A stretch of 36,447 nt of DNA, taken from the NCBI GenBank assembly GCA_945827635.1, contig CALZOG010000012.1, positions 1-36,447 of the forward strand. Reading direction: 5' to 3'. Shown piece by piece: positions 2,722 through 35,970 of this stretch. This DNA comes from an uncultured Bacteroidales bacterium (GTDB lineage: Bacteria > Bacteroidota > Bacteroidia > Bacteroidales > Paludibacteraceae). A model generated the notes under the pieces. The model was not told the DNA's origin. It was given only the letters and a program-made list of their open reading frames with translations, and did no database searches. Position 1 is the stretch's first letter, and every line of letters starts with the position of its first letter. A program made the position numbers and the translations under genes.

Positions 2722-3611
2722 GCAAACAGATTATACAAGGATTAGGCACGGCGCTGGTGACACCATTCACGGAAACAGGAAAAGTGGATGAGACGGCATT
2801 ACACAGACTGTTAGACAGGCAGCTTGCGGCAAAGGTGGATTATCTGGTGGTGCTGGGCACAACGGGTGAGGCGGCCACCATGACGGCACGTGAGCAAGCG
2901 TTCGTCAGAAAGACGATAGTGGAACATGTTGCCGGCAGAGTGCCGCTGGTGCTTGGCGTAGGCGGCAACTGCACACAGGAAGTGGTTGAGCGACTGGGCT
3001 TGCTGAGCACTGAACTGAAACGCGACTATGCGGCTATACTGAGCGTGTGCCCATACTATAACAAGCCTCAGCAGGAAGGGTTATACAGGCATTTTGCAGC
3101 GATAGCAGAAGCATCGGCAGTGCCGGTGATACTATATAATGTACCCGGTCGTACAGGAGTGAACATGCTGCCTGAGACGGTATTCCGATTGGCAGCCAGT
3201 TATCCGCACAAGATCATTGGCGTAAAAGAGGCGTCCGGCAAGCAAGAACAGATAGAGGCTATCATCCGCGGCACAAGAGGCAGCGAGTTTGTGGTGTTGT
3301 CGGGCGATGACGGGTTGGCTGCACCGCTGATGCTGAATGGTGCACAAGGGCTGATATCCGTGCTGTCGAACGCCCTGCCGGAAGATACGATGCGGCTGGT
3401 TCACCAACCGACATTAGAGCAGCAGGCGGCTTTGGAGGAACTGATCAAAGCACTGTTTGCCGAAGGTAATCCGACTGGGATAAAAGGTTTGCTGTCAATA
3501 CAAGGTGTGATGAGTGATCATGTGCGTTTGCCACTGGTGGCGGCAAGTGCAGGGTTGAAGAGTGATTTACGAAAATTATTGGACAATTATGAAAATAGCA
3601 CTATTCGGTAA
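2718..3611 (+). CDS. dapA: 4-hydroxy-tetrahydrodipicolinate synthase
   Basis: GLGTALVTPFTE, GTTGEAATM, YYNKPQQEGLYRHF, LYNVPGRTGVNM, GVKEASG. Confidence 0.97.
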   Translation: MSKQIIQGLGTALVTPFTETGKVDETALHRLLDRQLAAKVDYLVVLGTTGEAATMTAREQAFVRKTIVEHVAGRVPLVLGVGGNCTQEVVERLGLLSTELKRDYAAILSVCPYYNKPQQEGLYRHFAAIAEASAVPVILYNVPGRTGVNMLPETVFRLAASYPHKIIGVKEASGKQEQIEAIIRGTRGSEFVVLSGDDGLAAPLMLNGAQGLISVLSNALPEDTMRLVHQPTLEQQAALEELIKALFAEGNPTGIKGLLSIQGVMSDHVRLPLVAASAGLKSDLRKLLDNYENSTIR

Positions 3612-10941: not shown

Positions 10942-12678
10942 ATGTTTAGATTTGCTAATATAGAACTCTTGTGGTTGCTGCTGCTCATCCCGGCTATGAC
11001 GGCAGGGCACATTTTCCTGAGTCGCAAGAAACGTCGTGCGGCACGCGAGTTCGGCGAGAAGGCGTTGGTTGACTCGCTCATGCCGAATGCTGCAACAAGC
11101 CGCGTACACATCAAGTTCAGTATATTGATGCTTGCCTTGGCTTGCCTGATTATTGCTGCGGCACGACCGCAATACGGACAATCGGAACGCGTGGAAAAAC
11201 GTCAGGGTATCGAAGTGATGATTGCACTGGATATATCCAACTCCATGCTTGCCGAAGATGTCGCTCCTTCGCGTCTGGACAGAGCCAAACAGATGCTCAG
11301 CAAACTGATTGACAACATGTCGGACGACAAAGTCGGCTTGGTCGTGTTTGCAGGAGAGGCATACACACAACTGCCTATCACGGCTGATTATGTATCCGCC
11401 AAGATGTTCCTGCAGCATATTACTCCCTCTCTCATCCAGACGCAGGGAACGGCTATCGGCGCGGCTATCAACACTTCTATCCGTGGATTCGGCGGCGAGG
11501 AAGGTAAAGCTTCGCGAGCCATCATTCTGATCACCGATGGCGAGAACCACGAGAAAGGTGCAACAGAAGCTGCACAGAAAGCTGCCGAACTGGGCATGCA
11601 CGTACACGTGATCGGTATAGGCAAACCCGAAGGCAGTCCTATTCCTATTGCCGGAACAGGAGAGTTCCGCAAGGACAGACAGGGAAACGTTGTTATTACC
11701 CACCTCAATGAAGACATGTGCCGCGAGATTGCACAGGCAGGCAAAGGATTCTACGTCCGTTGCGACAACACCAACACAGCCTATCGTGCGCTGGAGCAGG
11801 AGTTAGACAAATTGGCTAAGCAGGAGATCGAAACCACCTCGTTCACCGACTACAACGAGCAATATCAGTCGTTTGCCATTCTGGCACTGCTGCTGCTCGT
11901 GGTTGAGTTCTTTATCTTCCCGCGCAAGAACAAAGTTCTGTCCCGATGGAACATTTTCCGCACTCCTGCCACTATAGCCGTATTGCTGATACTTTCCGCG
12001 CCGGCATTCGCACAAAAAGAATCTCCGGATATCCGCAAAGGCAACCGCCAGTTCGTGGATTCCAACTACGTGGATGCCGAATTGCACTACAAACGCGCGC
12101 TGGAAAAGAACGACCAATCTGTTCCCGCTAACTACAATATAGGTTGCGCTTACTTCAAGGACGGCAAATATCAGGAAGCTGCCGAGGCGTTTGAGCAGAC
12201 AAGCAAACTCATTGATCCCGAAAAAGACCATGAGAAAGCTGCTGACAACTACCACAATCTGGGCAACTCCTATTTTGCGCAAGGTCAGTTCGACAAAGCC
12301 ATCGAGGCGTACAAACAGTCGCTGCGTATCCGGCCCAAAGACCACGAGACACGCTATAACCTCGTGAAAGCCATGCAGATGAAGCAACAGCAAGAACAGC
12401 AACAGCAGCAACAACAAGAACAGCAGCAAGAACAACAGCAGGAACAGCAGCAGGAACAACAGCAGCAAGAACAGCAACAGGAACAACAGCAACAAGAACA
12501 GCAACAGGAACAACAGCAACAACAACAGCAACAACAGCAACAGGCTGAAGAGCAGGACAGCATGGACAAAGAAACGGCCGAGCAGATTCTGCAAGCATTG
12601 GAGCAAGACGAACAAGAAACACAAGAGAAAGCACAAAAACCGCAAGGAAAGAAACGCCGCTTGGATAACGATTGGTAA
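10942..12678 (+). CDS. batB: BatB-BatC fusion: VWA domain protein with C-terminal TPR and Gln/Glu-rich tail
   Basis: VWA MIDAS (MIALDISNSMLAEDVAPSRLDRAK), TM, second hydrophobic segment IAVLLILSAPAFAQ, then TPRs (NYHNLGNSYFAQGQFDKAIEAYKQSLRIRPKD), all in one uninterrupted ORF. Confidence 0.9.
   Translation: MFRFANIELLWLLLLIPAMTAGHIFLSRKKRRAAREFGEKALVDSLMPNAATSRVHIKFSILMLALACLIIAAARPQYGQSERVEKRQGIEVMIALDISNSMLAEDVAPSRLDRAKQMLSKLIDNMSDDKVGLVVFAGEAYTQLPITADYVSAKMFLQHITPSLIQTQGTAIGAAINTSIRGFGGEEGKASRAIILITDGENHEKGATEAAQKAAELGMHVHVIGIGKPEGSPIPIAGTGEFRKDRQGNVVITHLNEDMCREIAQAGKGFYVRCDNTNTAYRALEQELDKLAKQEIETTSFTDYNEQYQSFAILALLLLVVEFFIFPRKNKVLSRWNIFRTPATIAVLLILSAPAFAQKESPDIRKGNRQFVDSNYVDAELHYKRALEKNDQSVPANYNIGCAYFKDGKYQEAAEAFEQTSKLIDPEKDHEKAADNYHNLGNSYFAQGQFDKAIEAYKQSLRIRPKDHETRYNLVKAMQMKQQQEQQQQQQQEQQQEQQQEQQQEQQQQEQQQEQQQQEQQQEQQQQQQQQQQQAEEQDSMDKETAEQILQALEQDEQETQEKAQKPQGKKRRLDNDW
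12385..12543 (+). repeat. CAG/CAA/GAA tract encoding a 53-residue Q/E repeat
   Basis: Encodes QQQEQQQQQQQEQQQEQQQEQQQEQQQQEQQQEQQQQEQQQE(Q)11 with mixed CAA/CAG codons. Confidence 0.95.
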
Positions 12679-22230: not shown

Positions 22231-23595
22231 TTAACCAAGTTGATTATTCATCCTTTGTATCGCTTCGCCTACAACGTAATTGCTGCCACCGATGAAGATC
22301 AGGTCTTCCGGTTGCGCAGCGGCTTGCGCACGGGCTAATGCTTCCGCCACCGAACCGAATGCCTGCGCCGTTGAGTCAGGATGGATAGCCAGCCACTTGG
22401 CGAGTAACTGTACGGCAGGAAAGGCGCGATGGCTGGCAGGTTGGGTGAAGTAATAGGTTGCCTCTGCGGGCAATAAATGCAACACGTTGTCAATATCCTT
22501 GTCGGCAACCATGCCGAAGACTATATGTTTGCGTTTGTCTATGCGGCGCAACTGATCTACGTACGTGGCAACGCCGTGACTGTTGTGCCCCGTGTCGCAG
22601 ATAGTGAGCGGACGATTGCACAAGGTCTCCCAACGCCCGCACAAGCCGGTGTAAGTCACTACATTGGCAAAGCCTTCGGCTATGGCGGGAGAGTTGAGGG
22701 TTGAGAGTTGAGAGTGGGTGCGCAGCACTTGCAAGGCGACGCAGGCAGTCTGCAGGTTACGCTGCTGATAATCGCCGCGTAGTTCACAATCGGGCGCGAG
22801 ACGCAGGCGTTGGCGTCGCAGGAATTCGCATTGGTCAGCAAACCACAAGCGGCAGCCGGTTGTCTCCAATCCATCGCCAAGAATGCCGCACTCTTCGGCA
22901 CGGCTGAGGAAAACAGGCGCAGTTTGCGGGTGCGTCTCGCCAATCACGCAGGGAACACCGGGTTTGATTATTCCGGCTTTCTGCGTGGCAATCTCGGCGA
23001 GCGAATGCCCGAGCAGATCAGTATGATCCATGCCGATATTGGTGATAACACTCAGCACAGGTGTAATAATATTAGTAGCATCCAGCAGCCCTCCCAAGCC
23101 GACTTCGATCACGGCTATATCCACGTTCTGCTCCATCAGCCAGCAGAACGCCATAGCCGTGGTGATCTCGAAGAACGAGGGTTGCAGTTCGGCAAACAGC
23201 GCTTGATGGTCTTCAACAAAACGTGCCACAAAAGTCTCGGGAATAAGGGAAAAACCTACCTCTCCGGGATTATCATGGCAGGAACGCCGGCGCTCAATCA
23301 CGCGCACCCGTTCGCAGAACGACACAAGATGCGGTGAGGTGTACAACCCCACTTTGTAGCCCGCTGCAGCCAGTGCAGAGGCAATGAGGTGCGAGGTGGA
23401 TCCTTTGCCGTTGGTGCCGGCTACATGAACCACGGGAAAATTGAAAATTGAAAATTGAGAATTGAAAGGTCGAGTATCCAGTGCAGCCATCAGTCGGCGC
23501 ATAGTATCCAAACCTGGCTTATACGCCGCAGCACCCACCTGATGAAAAGGCGGTGCTATCGAATAGAGATATGTCAATGCTGCATCAAAACTCAT
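22231..23595 (-). CDS. folC: Bifunctional folylpolyglutamate/dihydrofolate synthase
   Basis: VVHVAGTNGKGSTSHLIASAL, TSPHLVSFCERVRV, EVGLGGLLDATNI, NIGMDHTDLLG. Confidence 0.95.
   Translation of the reverse strand: MSFDAALTYLYSIAPPFHQVGAAAYKPGLDTMRRLMAALDTRPFNSQFSIFNFPVVHVAGTNGKGSTSHLIASALAAAGYKVGLYTSPHLVSFCERVRVIERRRSCHDNPGEVGFSLIPETFVARFVEDHQALFAELQPSFFEITTAMAFCWLMEQNVDIAVIEVGLGGLLDATNIITPVLSVITNIGMDHTDLLGHSLAEIATQKAGIIKPGVPCVIGETHPQTAPVFLSRAEECGILGDGLETTGCRLWFADQCEFLRRQRLRLAPDCELRGDYQQRNLQTACVALQVLRTHSQLSTLNSPAIAEGFANVVTYTGLCGRWETLCNRPLTICDTGHNSHGVATYVDQLRRIDKRKHIVFGMVADKDIDNVLHLLPAEATYYFTQPASHRAFPAVQLLAKWLAIHPDSTAQAFGSVAEALARAQAAAQPEDLIFIGGSNYVVGEAIQRMNNQLG
22693..22713 (-). repeat. Heptamer array inside folC (GTTGAGG-GTTGAGA-GTTGAGA on the plus strand)
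   Basis: Three 7-bp units, 21 bp, encoding part of SQLSTLNS. Confidence 0.85.
23436..23463 (-). repeat. Heptamer array inside folC (GAAAATT x3 + GAGAATT on the plus strand)
   Basis: Four 7-bp units encoding FNSQFSIFNF just before the P-loop HVAGTNGKGS. Confidence 0.88.
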
Positions 23596-23625
23596 ACATC
23601 TCAGGTGAGGAAAGTACTATAAAAG

Positions 23626-23675
23626 TACGATAAAACTTCGATAAACCCTCGATAAACCCCCGATGGAACGGAACG
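23626..23675 (+). repeat. 'CGAT ladder' element copy 1
   Basis: TACGATAAAAC TTCGATAAACC CTCGATAAACC CCCGATGGAACGGAACG, then T6; CGAT at 23628, 23639, 23650, 23661. Confidence 0.9.
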
Positions 23676-23679
23676 TTTT

Positions 23680-26600
23680 TTAACTGAAACTATAGGTGAG
23701 TATGTTATCTTTGCGTTGCGCACTCAGCCAGTGGTAGAACGGTTTGGTTACACGTATATGTACGGTTCGTGCTGTGAGGGTTATGCCGTTGTGGTGCAAC
23801 GAATCCTCAACGCGGAATCTGATAACCAATCCGTCGTTGTCGTTCGCCTGCTCGCACTGCTCCTGAAAATCTCCCGCCCACGCTTCGGTAAGTTTGTCAA
23901 CAGGCATAGTGAGAGTGAGGTTGTGGACGCGATTCTTCTGTGCGTCCTGCAGGAGTTGTACATCCTTGACACGGCACTCATATTCGGCTTCGGCAAACGG
24001 AACATCCTTGTAGTACCTTCCGCCCCACCCTCTCGGCTGAACCTGCAGAGAGACGAAGGCATACACATCTTTTTTCAGCAGCGGAGCAAAGCGTTTGTAA
24101 TCCTCACCGAAGATCATGAACTCGTAACTGCCGGTATAATCCTCGATGGTATAACGTCCGTACAATGTACCCTTCTGCGAAGTACGCTCCTCGGCAGCGG
24201 TGATTATTCCGCCAACGTTGATGATACGTTTCTCATGCGCGTGTATCCATTCTTCAGGCGACACGCGTGCCTGTTGCGGAGCTGCATCGGACACAACCTC
24301 TTTCTCTTCGGTCACAGGTTCGCCGTCTGCATCACTGGTCACGATGGTTTCGATGGTTGTCTCCTGCTCGTCGCTTCTGCTATCGTTGCCACCTTGTGCA
24401 AACTGGGCGATTGCGGCGGCACGTTGTTCGGGTTTCTCCCAATCGCGGAAATGCTTGAGTTCCTCAGCGGTAACCGAGCACAGTTCGCGCACCTCAAACT
24501 CGTAATCATCCAGCGGGTGAGCGGAGAGGTAGATGCCGATCATCTCTTTCTCCTTGTTGAGGCGTTCAATGTTCGTCATACGCGGCACGTTGGGCAGTTC
24601 GGGTTTCTGTATATCCACTTCCATGTCCGCTGCGCCGAACAAGGTGAACTGGTTGTCGGCTTTGTTCTGCTGGTAGAGGTTGCCGTAGCGAACGAGCGTA
24701 TCGAGCACAACTTCGCCCTTGGAGTTATAACCTAACAGTTGCTCGCGGTAGAGCCCCTGGAAGCAGTCGAACGCTCCGGCATAGGCGAGACTTTCGATTG
24801 TCTTCTTGTTGCAGGCAGTAAGGTTGACGCGTTCCACAAAATCGAATATATCCTTGTACTTGCCGTTCTTCTCGCGCTCGGAGACGATAGCCTCCACGGC
24901 ATTCTCACCTACTCCCTTCACGCCGCCCAAGCCGAAGCGTATATCGCCCTTGCTGTTCGCCATGAAGTTCAGTCCCGACTCGTTGACGTCCGGCTCGAGT
25001 ACGCGGATGTTCATCTCGGTGCACTCGTCCATGAGGCGGGTTACATCCTTGGTGCTGTTCTTGAGGATAGTGAGGTTAGCCGCCATGAACTCGGAGGGAT
25101 AATGCGCCTTGAGATAAGCAGTCTGGTAGGCGACCCATGAGTAGCACGCTGCGTGCGACTTGTTGAAGGCATAGGATGCGAACTTCTCCCAATCTGCCCA
25201 AATCTTGTCAAGTATCTTCGGGTCATGACCGTTCGCCTTGCCGCCTGTCATAAACTTGCCTTTCAACTCCTGCAGGATAGCCATCTGCTTCTTACCCATG
25301 GCTTTACGGAGTTTGTCGCTCTCGCCGCGGGTGAAGTTGGCAAGCAGTCGTGACAGAAGCATGACTTGCTCCTGATAGACCGTTACGCCATAGGTGTCCT
25401 TCAGGTACTTCTCCATGACAGGTATATCGTAGGTCACAGGCTCCACACCGTGCTTGCGGCGGATGAACTGCGGGATATAATCCATCGGTCCGGGTCGGTA
25501 CAAGGCGTTCATGGCTATCAGGTCGCCCATCACGGTCGGCTTGAGTTGGCGCATGTAACTGCGCATTCCCGAGGACTCAAACTGGAAAACGGCTACCGTT
25601 CGCCCTTCCTGGAACAGTTTGTATGTCAGTTCGTCGTCCAGAGGAATGTGGTCGATGTCAACCTCTATTCCCTTGGTGCGCTTGATAGTTCGTATGCATT
25701 CTTTGATGATCGACAGGGTGATCAGTCCGAGGAAGTCCATCTTGATCAGTCCTACCGACTCCACCACATGACCGTCGTACTGGGTCACAAGCACGCGTTT
25801 TTGCGTCTTGGGGTCGAGCACGGAAGCCAGCGGAGCGAACTTAGTCAGATCGTCGGCACCGATGATCACGCCACAGGCATGTATGCCTACCTGGCGGATA
25901 GTATCCTCTAATTGTGCAGCGTACTCCAAGGTGTTATGCAGTACGGGATCATCGCCCTCGTATATCTGACGGAGTTCGTCGATGTACTTGTAGCAGTTGC
26001 GGAGGTTAACCTTGGGTTTCTTGCCTTTATCATCCTTGACCGAATCGGGGAAGTCGCGATCGGGAACGAGCGACTTGAGCTGGTTGCTCATGGGTATAGG
26101 CACGCCTTGTACGCGCGCCACGTCGGCAAGAGCCGAACGCGTAGCCATCTTGCCGTAGGTGATGATATGTGCCACATGGGTAGCACCGTACTTCTGCGAC
26201 ACCCAATCGAGCACCTTGCCGCGACCGGAATCCTCGAAGTCGGTATCTATATCCGGCAGGGATATACGGTCGGGGTTCAGGAATCGCTCGAACAGCAGGT
26301 CGTACTTCAGCGGATCGAGGTCGGTTATCTTCAGGCAGTACGCGACCACCGAACCGGCAGCGGAGCCACGTCCCGGTCCGACGCTCACGTCCAGTTCCTC
26401 ACGGGCGGCACGGATAAAGTCCATCACAATGAGGAAGTATCCGGGGAAACCCATGGTTTTCATAGTATGGAGTTCAAACTTGATACGCTCCTCCTGCTCG
26501 TCGGTCAGCGTGTCTCCGTAACGCTCGTGGGCACCTTTATAGGTGAGGTATTGCAAGTAATCCGCCTCGAACTTTATGCGGTAGAGTCGATCGTAACCTC

Positions 26601-27714
26601 CGAGTTTGTGGATACGTTTCTCCGCCTCAGCCTCGGTCATGATCACCTCTCCGTGCTCGTTGCGCGTGAACTCGTTGTAGAGTTGCTCGTGTGTGAACTT
26701 CTGCCGCCACTGCTCCTCCGTGCCGAACGACTCGGGTATATCGAACAGCGGCATAATAGGGTCTTTGTCCAGGTCATAGATCTCCACCTTGCTTGCCACC
26801 TCCAGGGTGTTGGCGAGTGCTTCGGGGATATCGTCGAAGATACGTTTCATCTCCTCGGGTGTCTTGAGCCACTCCTGCTTGGTGTACATCAGTTTGCGTG
26901 GTTCGGAGATCTTCTGGTTGGTTGACAGACAGATCAGGTGCTCATGCGCCTCGGCGTTCTGCTCGTCGAGGAAGTGCGCATCGTTGGTGCAGATAATCTT
27001 TACGTCATACTTCCGCGCCAGTTCGATGAGCACGGGATTGACCCGCCTCTGCTCCTGATAGGTCTCCTGGTTGCCGTTGGGTTTGTCGGTCTGGTGGCGC
27101 TGGAGTTCGATGTAATAATCGTCGCCGAACACGCGCTTGAACCACTGCACCGTTTCTTCCGCTCCTGCGCGGTCGCCATGCAGCACTTTCTGACTGAGTT
27201 CACCGCCGAGACATGCCGAGCAGGCGATCACGCCCTCATGATACTGCTCCAGCAGTTCTTTGTCAATACGCGGACGCGAGTAGAACGCATCGTCCATGAA
27301 CCCTGCACTGGTCAGTTTGCACAGGTTATGGTACCCCAGTTCGTTTTTCGCAAGCAGAATGAGGTGGAAGCCCGACTTGTCGATCTGATCTACTTTGCCG
27401 TCCGGCCATGTGTACTGCTCGTTGGTCATCGAGCGTCGCGTACGCCATGCGCAGTACGCCTCGACGCCAATGATAGGCTTGAAGGGCACAAAGGGCTCGG
27501 AGGCATCGTGCGAATCAGCCCACGCCTCTTTGTTCTTCTTGTTGACTTTCTTGCAATAATCTACGAGTTCCTTTATGCCGTACATATTGCCGTGATCGGT
27601 CAGCGCCACAGCCGGCATGCCGGTGCGGATACACTTATCAACTATATCAGGTACCTTCGACATGCCGTCGAGCGTCGAGTAGTGCGAGTGAACGTGCAGA
27701 TGGACAAAAGACAT
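23680..27714 (-). CDS. dnaE: DNA polymerase III subunit alpha
   Basis: FVHLHVHSHYSTLDGM PHP domain, VGPGRGSAAGSVVAYCL, PDIDTDFEDSGRGKVLDW, GIHACGVII, VYQEQVM. Confidence 0.98.
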   Translation of the reverse strand: MSFVHLHVHSHYSTLDGMSKVPDIVDKCIRTGMPAVALTDHGNMYGIKELVDYCKKVNKKNKEAWADSHDASEPFVPFKPIIGVEAYCAWRTRRSMTNEQYTWPDGKVDQIDKSGFHLILLAKNELGYHNLCKLTSAGFMDDAFYSRPRIDKELLEQYHEGVIACSACLGGELSQKVLHGDRAGAEETVQWFKRVFGDDYYIELQRHQTDKPNGNQETYQEQRRVNPVLIELARKYDVKIICTNDAHFLDEQNAEAHEHLICLSTNQKISEPRKLMYTKQEWLKTPEEMKRIFDDIPEALANTLEVASKVEIYDLDKDPIMPLFDIPESFGTEEQWRQKFTHEQLYNEFTRNEHGEVIMTEAEAEKRIHKLGGYDRLYRIKFEADYLQYLTYKGAHERYGDTLTDEQEERIKFELHTMKTMGFPGYFLIVMDFIRAAREELDVSVGPGRGSAAGSVVAYCLKITDLDPLKYDLLFERFLNPDRISLPDIDTDFEDSGRGKVLDWVSQKYGATHVAHIITYGKMATRSALADVARVQGVPIPMSNQLKSLVPDRDFPDSVKDDKGKKPKVNLRNCYKYIDELRQIYEGDDPVLHNTLEYAAQLEDTIRQVGIHACGVIIGADDLTKFAPLASVLDPKTQKRVLVTQYDGHVVESVGLIKMDFLGLITLSIIKECIRTIKRTKGIEVDIDHIPLDDELTYKLFQEGRTVAVFQFESSGMRSYMRQLKPTVMGDLIAMNALYRPGPMDYIPQFIRRKHGVEPVTYDIPVMEKYLKDTYGVTVYQEQVMLLSRLLANFTRGESDKLRKAMGKKQMAILQELKGKFMTGGKANGHDPKILDKIWADWEKFASYAFNKSHAACYSWVAYQTAYLKAHYPSEFMAANLTILKNSTKDVTRLMDECTEMNIRVLEPDVNESGLNFMANSKGDIRFGLGGVKGVGENAVEAIVSEREKNGKYKDIFDFVERVNLTACNKKTIESLAYAGAFDCFQGLYREQLLGYNSKGEVVLDTLVRYGNLYQQNKADNQFTLFGAADMEVDIQKPELPNVPRMTNIERLNKEKEMIGIYLSAHPLDDYEFEVRELCSVTAEELKHFRDWEKPEQRAAAIAQFAQGGNDSRSDEQETTIETIVTSDADGEPVTEEKEVVSDAAPQQARVSPEEWIHAHEKRIINVGGIITAAEERTSQKGTLYGRYTIEDYTGSYEFMIFGEDYKRFAPLLKKDVYAFVSLQVQPRGWGGRYYKDVPFAEAEYECRVKDVQLLQDAQKNRVHNLTLTMPVDKLTEAWAGDFQEQCEQANDNDGLVIRFRVEDSLHHNGITLTARTVHIRVTKPFYHWLSAQRKDNILTYSFS

Positions 27715-27715
27715 A

Positions 27716-27750
27716 ACGATTTACGATTTACCATTTACGATTTACGATTG
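27716..27750 (-). repeat. Five heptamers forming the predicted dnaE 5' leader (AAATCGT-type on the coding strand)
   Basis: Plus strand ACGATTT ACGATTT ACCATTT ACGATTT ACGATTG, ending 1 nt from the start codon. Confidence 0.92.
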
Positions 27751-27859: not shown

Positions 27860-27909
27860 CACGATGAAACATCGATATTCCCTCGATAAACCCTCGATCG
27901 AACGGAACG
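27860..27909 (+). repeat. 'CGAT ladder' element copy 2
   Basis: CACGATGAAAC ATCGATATTCC CTCGATAAACC CTCGATCGAACGGAACG, then T6; CGAT at 27862, 27873, 27884, 27895. Confidence 0.9.
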
Positions 27910-28034: not shown

Positions 28035-29408
28035 TCATGATAGATAAAGTATCGGTTGTCTGAAATATTTGGCAGTGAGGTAAATGACCCTTGCCGCCAA
28101 GTGGGCGAAGTAGGCGATGTAGAGGGAGTGAGTCGAGAGTCGAAAGTCGAAAGTCGAAAGAAGAAAGTAGGAAACGGCGAAGGCGGCGGCAGCCCAGAGC
28201 ATGGCGTTGCGGATATCCTTACCGCGCGTGGCACCGGCAAAAATTCCGTCCCACATGAACGCCAACATACTGACTATCGGCATAGCGATCAGCCAACCTA
28301 TGTACTTGTGCATGGTAGTGATCACCTGTTGATCAGAAGTGAGTGCTGCAAACAACGCGTCGGGGAAAAGGGCGTACAAGAGGCTGAAGAACAAGCCGAC
28401 ACCAGTGCCCCAGGCGAAGAGGGTCCATATTAAAGTTGAGGGTTGAGCGTTGAGCGTTGAGCGAAGTTTGTCAGTTGAGGGTTGATTGCTGATGGCCGAC
28501 TGCTGCTCGCCGATGGTTTTGCCGACAAGAGCCTCGCCGGCATATGCAAAACCATCGATAAAGAACGAGAAGAGCATGAACAATTTCATCATTAGCGCAG
28601 AGGCTGCAAGTTCCACATCGCCGTAAGCACTGCTGATAGCCGTCCAACCGACATACACGACAATGAAACACAACGAACGGATGAACAGGTCGTAGTTGAG
28701 ACGGAAGAAGCGGGAAGAGTCGAAAGTCGAAAGTCGATAGTCGATAGTCGATAGTCGAAAGTGGTCGGCGTAGCGCGTGGCAATCATAACAAGGGCGACG
28801 ATCAGACCTGTCCATTGGGCGATGAGCGTTCCCCACGCCACGCCAACAGCACCTAAAGGTGTGTGGACCGCCAACAGGTACGAGGCGAGCATATTCACGC
28901 CATTGACCACCAGATCGGTGACCATAGCGCGCGTGCCGTCCTGCATCCCGATGAACCAGCCTTTGCAAGTCATGATCATCAGCGTAGCGGGAGCAGCCCA
29001 GACGCGAATGTTGAAGTATGCGCGCGCAAACTCCGCGACCTCGGGCGAGCAGGGCATAACGTAGAGCACCGCTCGCAGATAGACGGATTGCAGCAGCCAA
29101 ATGAGCAATGCGCCGACAAGAGCGATACCTGACGAGCGCAGCAGCAGACTGCCGCACTCCATCCGCTGCCCTGCGCCGTACGCCTGAGCGGTCAGACCTG
29201 CCGTGCTCACACGCAGGAAACCGAAACAGCCGTACAACATGTCAAACAACATTGTACCGACCGCTATGCCGCCTATCGCCCACGCCGAACTGATATGTCC
29301 GGCAATAACCATATCCACCAACCCGACCAGCGGGATAGTGATATTCGCCAGGATTGAGGGGACAGCAATCCGGAGGATGGATTTATGTAGATGAGAGTCG
29401 AAAGTCAA
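28035..29408 (-). CDS. MATE family efflux transporter (DinF-like)
   Basis: SILRIAVPSILANITIPLVGLVDMVIAGH; repeated TM segments; GFAYAGEALVGKTIG. Likely start is TTG at 29408, inside a heptamer array. Confidence 0.9.
   Translation of the reverse strand: MTFDSHLHKSILRIAVPSILANITIPLVGLVDMVIAGHISSAWAIGGIAVGTMLFDMLYGCFGFLRVSTAGLTAQAYGAGQRMECGSLLLRSSGIALVGALLIWLLQSVYLRAVLYVMPCSPEVAEFARAYFNIRVWAAPATLMIMTCKGWFIGMQDGTRAMVTDLVVNGVNMLASYLLAVHTPLGAVGVAWGTLIAQWTGLIVALVMIATRYADHFRLSTIDYRLSTFDSSRFFRLNYDLFIRSLCFIVVYVGWTAISSAYGDVELAASALMMKLFMLFSFFIDGFAYAGEALVGKTIGEQQSAISNQPSTDKLRSTLNAQPSTLIWTLFAWGTGVGLFFSLLYALFPDALFAALTSDQQVITTMHKYIGWLIAMPIVSMLAFMWDGIFAGATRGKDIRNAMLWAAAAFAVSYFLLSTFDFRLSTHSLYIAYFAHLAARVIYLTAKYFRQPILYLS
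28131..28158 (-). repeat. Heptamer array in the MATE C-terminal region (AGTCGAG + AGTCGAA x3, plus strand)
   Basis: Encodes LLSTFDFRLST in frame. Confidence 0.85.
28435..28487 (-). repeat. GTTGAGG/GTTGAGC heptamers inside MATE
   Basis: GTTGAGG + GTTGAGC x3 (28435-28462), an 11-nt interruption, GTTGAGG + GTTGATT (28474-28487); encodes SNQPSTDKLRSTLNAQPST. Confidence 0.85.
28718..28759 (-). repeat. Six-unit heptamer array inside MATE (AGTCGAA/AGTCGAT, plus strand)
   Basis: AGTCGAA x2, AGTCGAT x3, AGTCGAA; 42 bp in frame, encodes FRLSTIDYRLSTFDS. Confidence 0.92.
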
Positions 29409-35841: not shown

Positions 35842-35920
35842 CATGGGGGAAAGAAGACAAACGGCGGAATACCTCCTCAAACCGAACACCTCTACGCTTA
35901 CTCTGCGGGAAAGCGAAAGA

Positions 35921-35970
35921 CTCGATACATCCTCGAGAAAGCCTCGATAAGCCCTCGATGGAACGGAACG
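35921..35970 (+). repeat. 'CGAT ladder' element copy 3
   Basis: CTCGATACATC CTCGAGAAAGC CTCGATAAGCC CTCGATGGAACGGAACG; CGAT/CGAG at 35923, 35934, 35945, 35956. Confidence 0.9.

Follow-up and report, generated by a model that had tools for sequence, protein, structure and literature searches.

What does a tandem array of 7-bp units do inside the coding sequence of a membrane transporter, how did it arise, and how has the reading frame survived it? The locus that raises these questions lies in a 36,447-nucleotide stretch of DNA from an uncultured Bacteroidales bacterium (Paludibacteraceae), hereafter the window. The gene and its arrays are as follows.

28035 to 29408, minus strand: MATE-family transporter gene (MatE, PF01554), 457 aa, TTG start, assigned from Pfam (MatE, E=1e-23) and predicted structure
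28718 to 28762, minus strand: heptamer array TCGACTT/TCGACTA, 6.4 units, from TRF and sequence, coding for about residues 216-231 in the MATE helix 6-7 loop
28435 to 28463, minus strand: second in-frame heptamer array, TCAACGC/TCAACCC, in the helix 8-9 loop
28130 to 28167, minus strand: third in-frame heptamer array, TCGACTT/TCGACTC, in the helix 11-12 loop
29396 to 29471, minus strand: fourth heptamer array, TCGACTT/TCGACTA/TTGACTN, upstream of the MATE gene and overlapping its TTG start codon

The inter-lobe array and the transporter

On the plus strand, positions 28718-28759 read AGTCGAA twice, AGTCGAT three times and AGTCGAA once more, and the repeat continues with AGT to position 28762. 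TRF reports a period of 7, 6.4 copies and 94% matches, and translation of the minus strand gives ...ADHFRLSTIDYRLSTFDSSRFFRLNYD (HFRLSTIDYRLSTFDS). The six 7-bp units and the in-frame position within the MATE reading frame, both put forward in the preliminary description, are thus confirmed. Matches to the two-unit pattern TCGACTWTCGACTW with at most two mismatches number 23 in the window against 0.66 expected. A three-unit TCGACTW pattern at the same tolerance matches at 322 places genome-wide and its reversed form at 1, a control that is fair for this search only, since TCAACT is palindromic in letter order; searches with TCAACTN were used for presence alone. Chance is therefore excluded, and the array is a heptanucleotide simple-sequence repeat (LSSR), i.e., a head-to-tail series of 7-nt units.

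The gene has both a MatE domain match and a predicted two-lobe fold of 12 helices, which together assign it, in part by modeling, to the MATE transporters. Its product is putatively a drug-efflux-type membrane pump of that family, possibly with cation-coupled export. The predicted structure, with a mean pLDDT of 85 and a pTM of 0.84, has the MATE fold, its two lobes joined by a loop; the structural matches are led by solved MATE structures, with TM-scores of 0.74-0.84 among the best. Residues 213-230 fall between helices 6 and 7, in agreement with the earlier placement of the array in the loop joining the two six-helix lobes, and all three in-gene arrays lie between helices. A pLDDT below 50 over at least three residues occurs only at residues 221-228 (helix 6-7 loop) and 314-318 (helix 8-9 loop), both at arrays. 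From this low confidence, the loop coded by the inter-lobe array is predicted to be disordered.

Heptamer arrays across the genome

The array had first been viewed as a single event. That view does not hold, as the array is one of hundreds in the genome and the same gene has two more, with another over its start codon. In 436 kb of this genome we counted 46 period-7 arrays, about one per 10 kb, against 0 in an order-1 resample; periods 2-6 and 8-12 gave at most 11 arrays each, and the count for period 14 largely re-counts the period-7 arrays. The words found include TCGACTN, TCAACTN, TCAACGC, TTTTCAG, ATTTACG and AATTTTT, and two of these, TCAACTN and TCGACTN, are repeated at hundreds of sites and also turn up in other families of the Bacteroidia.

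Sampled stretches of this genome (780 kb) and of its sister species G007 (1.15 Mb) were compared. By simple gene calls on the 780 kb, where genes make up 85% of the sequence, 27 of the 76 arrays are internal to genes and 17 lie at gene 3′ ends, the stop codon often coming from the array itself. Arrays are depleted about tenfold in genes, yet are far from absent there. We also noted, in the stretches from both species, that antisense TCAACTN arrays often stand exactly at gene 3′ ends with a TGA stop inside the first unit (e.g., L055 5407-5504, L057 11839-11877 and L073 15156-15189), and look as if they had trimmed or capped the genes. Elsewhere in the window, a folylpolyglutamate-synthase-like (Mur ligase) gene at 22231-23595 on the minus strand carries two in-frame arrays (TTTTCAA, 23436-23465; TCAACTC, 22689-22715), and an ACGATTT array at 27716-27749 lies directly upstream of the start codon of a dnaE-like gene (23680-27714). 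A distinct family of 11-bp repeats, TCGATAAACCC, is found close to gene ends and in upstream regions (23611-23664, 27872-27898 and 35915-35958), and a long CAG/CAA (polyglutamine) repeat occupies 12383-12543, near the end of a TPR/VWA-type gene (10942-12678).

The preliminary description had argued that a pure heptamer array encodes the same cyclic heptapeptide in every frame, that TCGACTT and TCGACTA lack stops in all three frames, and that the opposite strand of TCGACTA gives TAG, which might explain the orientation. The arithmetic is correct and so are the stop codons, TAG appearing in every frame of antisense TCGACTA; the explanation survives only in part. Every tested word is open when its TCRAC... 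form is on the coding strand. In antisense, TCAACN words have a TGA in every frame, and in-gene TCAAC arrays are, as stop codons predict, nearly all sense (14, against 1 antisense). Antisense TCGACTT and TCGACTC, however, contain no stop, so the argument from stops is limited to TCGACTA runs. There are five such runs of at least three units, and the sole one within a gene is the TM6-7 array of the MATE gene, in the open orientation. For TCGACT arrays overall the explanation is weak: of the 27 in genes, 4 are sense and 23 antisense, with the word on the template strand, since AAGTCGA (KSKVESR) likewise contains no stop. The TCGACT arrays of the MATE gene are thus in the rarer orientation.

Repeats of this kind are known; what is notable here is the coding location and the change of word in place. 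Mrazek and others (2007) reported 7-nt units as the most abundant class of long simple-sequence repeat in many prokaryote genomes, and slippage tied to a 7-nt polymerase contact has been proposed (both as relayed in PMC4679880 and PMC4692102). Prokaryotic 7-nt LSSRs resemble the present arrays in their genome-wide scatter, in the abundance of heptamers and in the slippage proposed for them (PMC4679880, PMC4692102). The same reports place units divisible by 3 most often in coding regions, whereas here about one third of the sampled 7-bp arrays lie within genes, in frame. The GGGAATC and GGGGATT repeats of Xanthomonas and Nostoc are alike in number, with nearly two hundred heptamer arrays per Xanthomonas genome, and in that related Xanthomonas species share sites at which length and sequence are highly variable (PMC4692102). 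They differ in being G-rich and quadruplex-forming and in being described as intergenic patterns (PMC4692102); the present words lack G-runs and change between sister species. The TAACTGA direct repeats of Beggiatoaceae, cyanobacteria and some Bacteroidetes likewise show heptamers in several phyla with orientation limited by stop codons, but consist of one fixed word found mostly just before start codons (PMC4679880), as opposed to the several words and many in-gene arrays seen here. As of 2015 there was no detailed literature on bacterial heptamer repeats (PMC4692102), and our search of the open-licence literature turned up no description of coding heptamer arrays in Bacteroidales.

Loop length, word and frame among relatives

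Between fixed anchors, the TM6-7 loop has 20 aa here and 15-34 aa in homologues, with a mode of 20-21; outside the close clade, nearly all of the homologues compared lack the repeat. The loop length does not exceed that of repeat-free homologues, and thus there has been no net insertion at TM6-7. The earlier statement that the array was inserted is not borne out; judging from these alignments, the array has overwritten an existing loop. An ancestral origin of the residues had also been considered, but outside the close clade the loop residues differ. The TM8-9 loop has 27 aa, against about 11 aa in outgroups. The TM11-12 loop has 14-28 aa in nine close relatives and 11 aa in all others but one (G044, 24 aa), so that there, unlike at TM6-7, the array adds length. 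In a tree built with the loops removed, the nine species with long TM11-12 loops form one clade with 100/100 support. One ancestral gain of length followed by changes of word would fit best; independent gains may be the alternative.

The close relatives are Bacteroidales and Paludibacteraceae MAGs, at least one of them from goat rumen and others with RUG isolate names, which are probably rumen genomes, with simple gene calls; the window's bacterium is presumably from the rumen too. G001 was excluded from the counts, as the MATE gene of this MAG seems to be disrupted or misassembled. The sister species G007, about 94-95% identical in the DNA flanking the MATE arrays, carries arrays at the same three loops. 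At TM6-7 the two species have equal unit number and equal length, and the variable seventh base differs in most units. At TM11-12, the window's gene has TCGACTT and G007 has TCAACAC units plus a palindrome; at TM8-9, TCAACGC stands against AGCAGTC units plus a G+C-rich insert. Further relatives have other TM11-12 words (AATTGTC in L147, TTTCACC in L149 and an 8-bp word in L148), and in L150 and L153 the loop is long yet without a repeat. In the wider genus, the TM8-9 loops of about a dozen species carry period-7 or period-8 arrays of various words.

Two further features of these genes deserve mention. In G007 (L010 / L146, TM11-12 and TM8-9 loops), an imperfect palindrome, CCCCTCCCTGAAAGGAGGGG, lies in the MATE coding sequence and is read through in frame; at up to two mismatches it occurs 19 times in G007 and 7 times in the window's genome. 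In L148, an array of ATGGCTA/ATGGCCA units lies at about 2960-3000, upstream of the MATE match. The last ATG of this array shares the reading frame of the MATE gene, and the start codon may thus come from a repeat unit.

Array sites were compared between the window's genome and G007 after manual removal of reciprocal duplicates. At some of them the other species has no array, and at others it has a different word. Within genes, the length difference is zero or divisible by 3 at all 18 sites; the nine non-zero differences are 42, 30, 21, 18, 42, 9, 6, 60 and 45, an outcome with a chance probability of about 5e-5. Several of these are multiples of 21, and unit slippage combined with selection on the frame would predict such steps (21 and 42). 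Outside genes or at gene edges, only 7 of the 22 non-zero differences are multiples of 3; multiples of 7 account for 9, where about 3 are expected. Copy number appears to change in whole units between relatives. At the level of sequence, the comparison demonstrates conservation of sites, change of word, steps of seven outside genes and conservation of frame inside them.

Origin and turnover of the arrays

We consider it probable that the arrays form a genome-wide class of heptanucleotide repeats, one copy of which now codes for the disordered inter-lobe loop of the MATE transporter, with turnover by slippage and homogenization and the frame kept by selection. Strand slippage or unequal exchange would add and remove units, 7 bp at a time. 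An array would change family as a variant of its unit, or a unit originating in a different array, spread through it. Selection would remove variants that disrupt the frame or introduce stops, and in-gene arrays would therefore survive only in tolerant loops and in stop-free combinations of word and orientation. The TM6-7 loop would be a passive linker, probably acting only as such, with its exact residues mattering little.

Local slippage alone fails to explain why the same few words stand at hundreds of sites and across Bacteroidia families. On the basis of this recurrence, an active process might copy heptamer units between dispersed arrays, by ectopic conversion or templated re-synthesis, so that whole words change in place while site and frame are kept. 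We regard this as a minority possibility, with perhaps some chance of being correct; if it is, the arrays would be a concertedly evolving, genome-wide family rather than independent microsatellites.

A phase-variation switch, in which loss or gain of one 7-bp unit would shift the frame and turn the transporter off or on, seems improbable. Seven is not divisible by 3, so single-unit slippage would indeed cause a frameshift, and the array at the start of the MATE gene differs by 49 bp between the sister species. Heptanucleotide repeats of variable number also modulate hmw1A and hmw2A in Haemophilus influenzae, where in-ORF heptamers show frameshifts, but the hmw repeats lie in promoters and comprise 13-38 units (PMC2651432), as opposed to few, imperfect coding units with the frame kept. 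No out-of-frame state was seen at any of the 18 in-gene sites, and among the relatives shown only L147 has one stop in the matched frame. The arrays, moreover, lie in or beside dnaE-like, folC-like and many other ordinary genes, not mainly surface antigens. Those within the MATE gene are short (about 4-7 units) and partly degenerate, and arrays of this kind should slip more slowly.

It is similarly doubtful that the peptide itself is selected, i.e., that the heptad FRLSTFD has a function in the loop and the DNA repeat is a by-product. In the TM6-7 loop of L150, L152 and L153 an F-x-[FL]-S heptad persists despite weak repetition in the DNA, which could reflect selection on the peptide. Against this, the loops of congeners outside the clade match in length but have unrelated residues, the same words also occur between genes and in other reading orientations, and the model gives the loop the low confidence typical of disordered segments. 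Least probable is a REP-like or MITE-like mobile element that placed a ready-made array in the gene: the multicopy palindrome adjoins the TM11-12 array of G007, and a G+C-rich insert lies at TM8-9, but none of the arrays in the window's MATE gene has this palindrome beside it, the TM6-7 loop has not grown on balance, and a non-systematic look at the listed empty-site pairs revealed no consistent target duplication.

Heptamer repeats are widespread in bacteria and little studied. Sister species that carry different heptamers in the same protein loops, with the frame kept, provide a natural record of how arrays arise, change word and come under selection in coding DNA. Loop residues in such proteins mirror DNA repeats rather than ancestral sequence, and this calls for caution in annotation and phylogeny.
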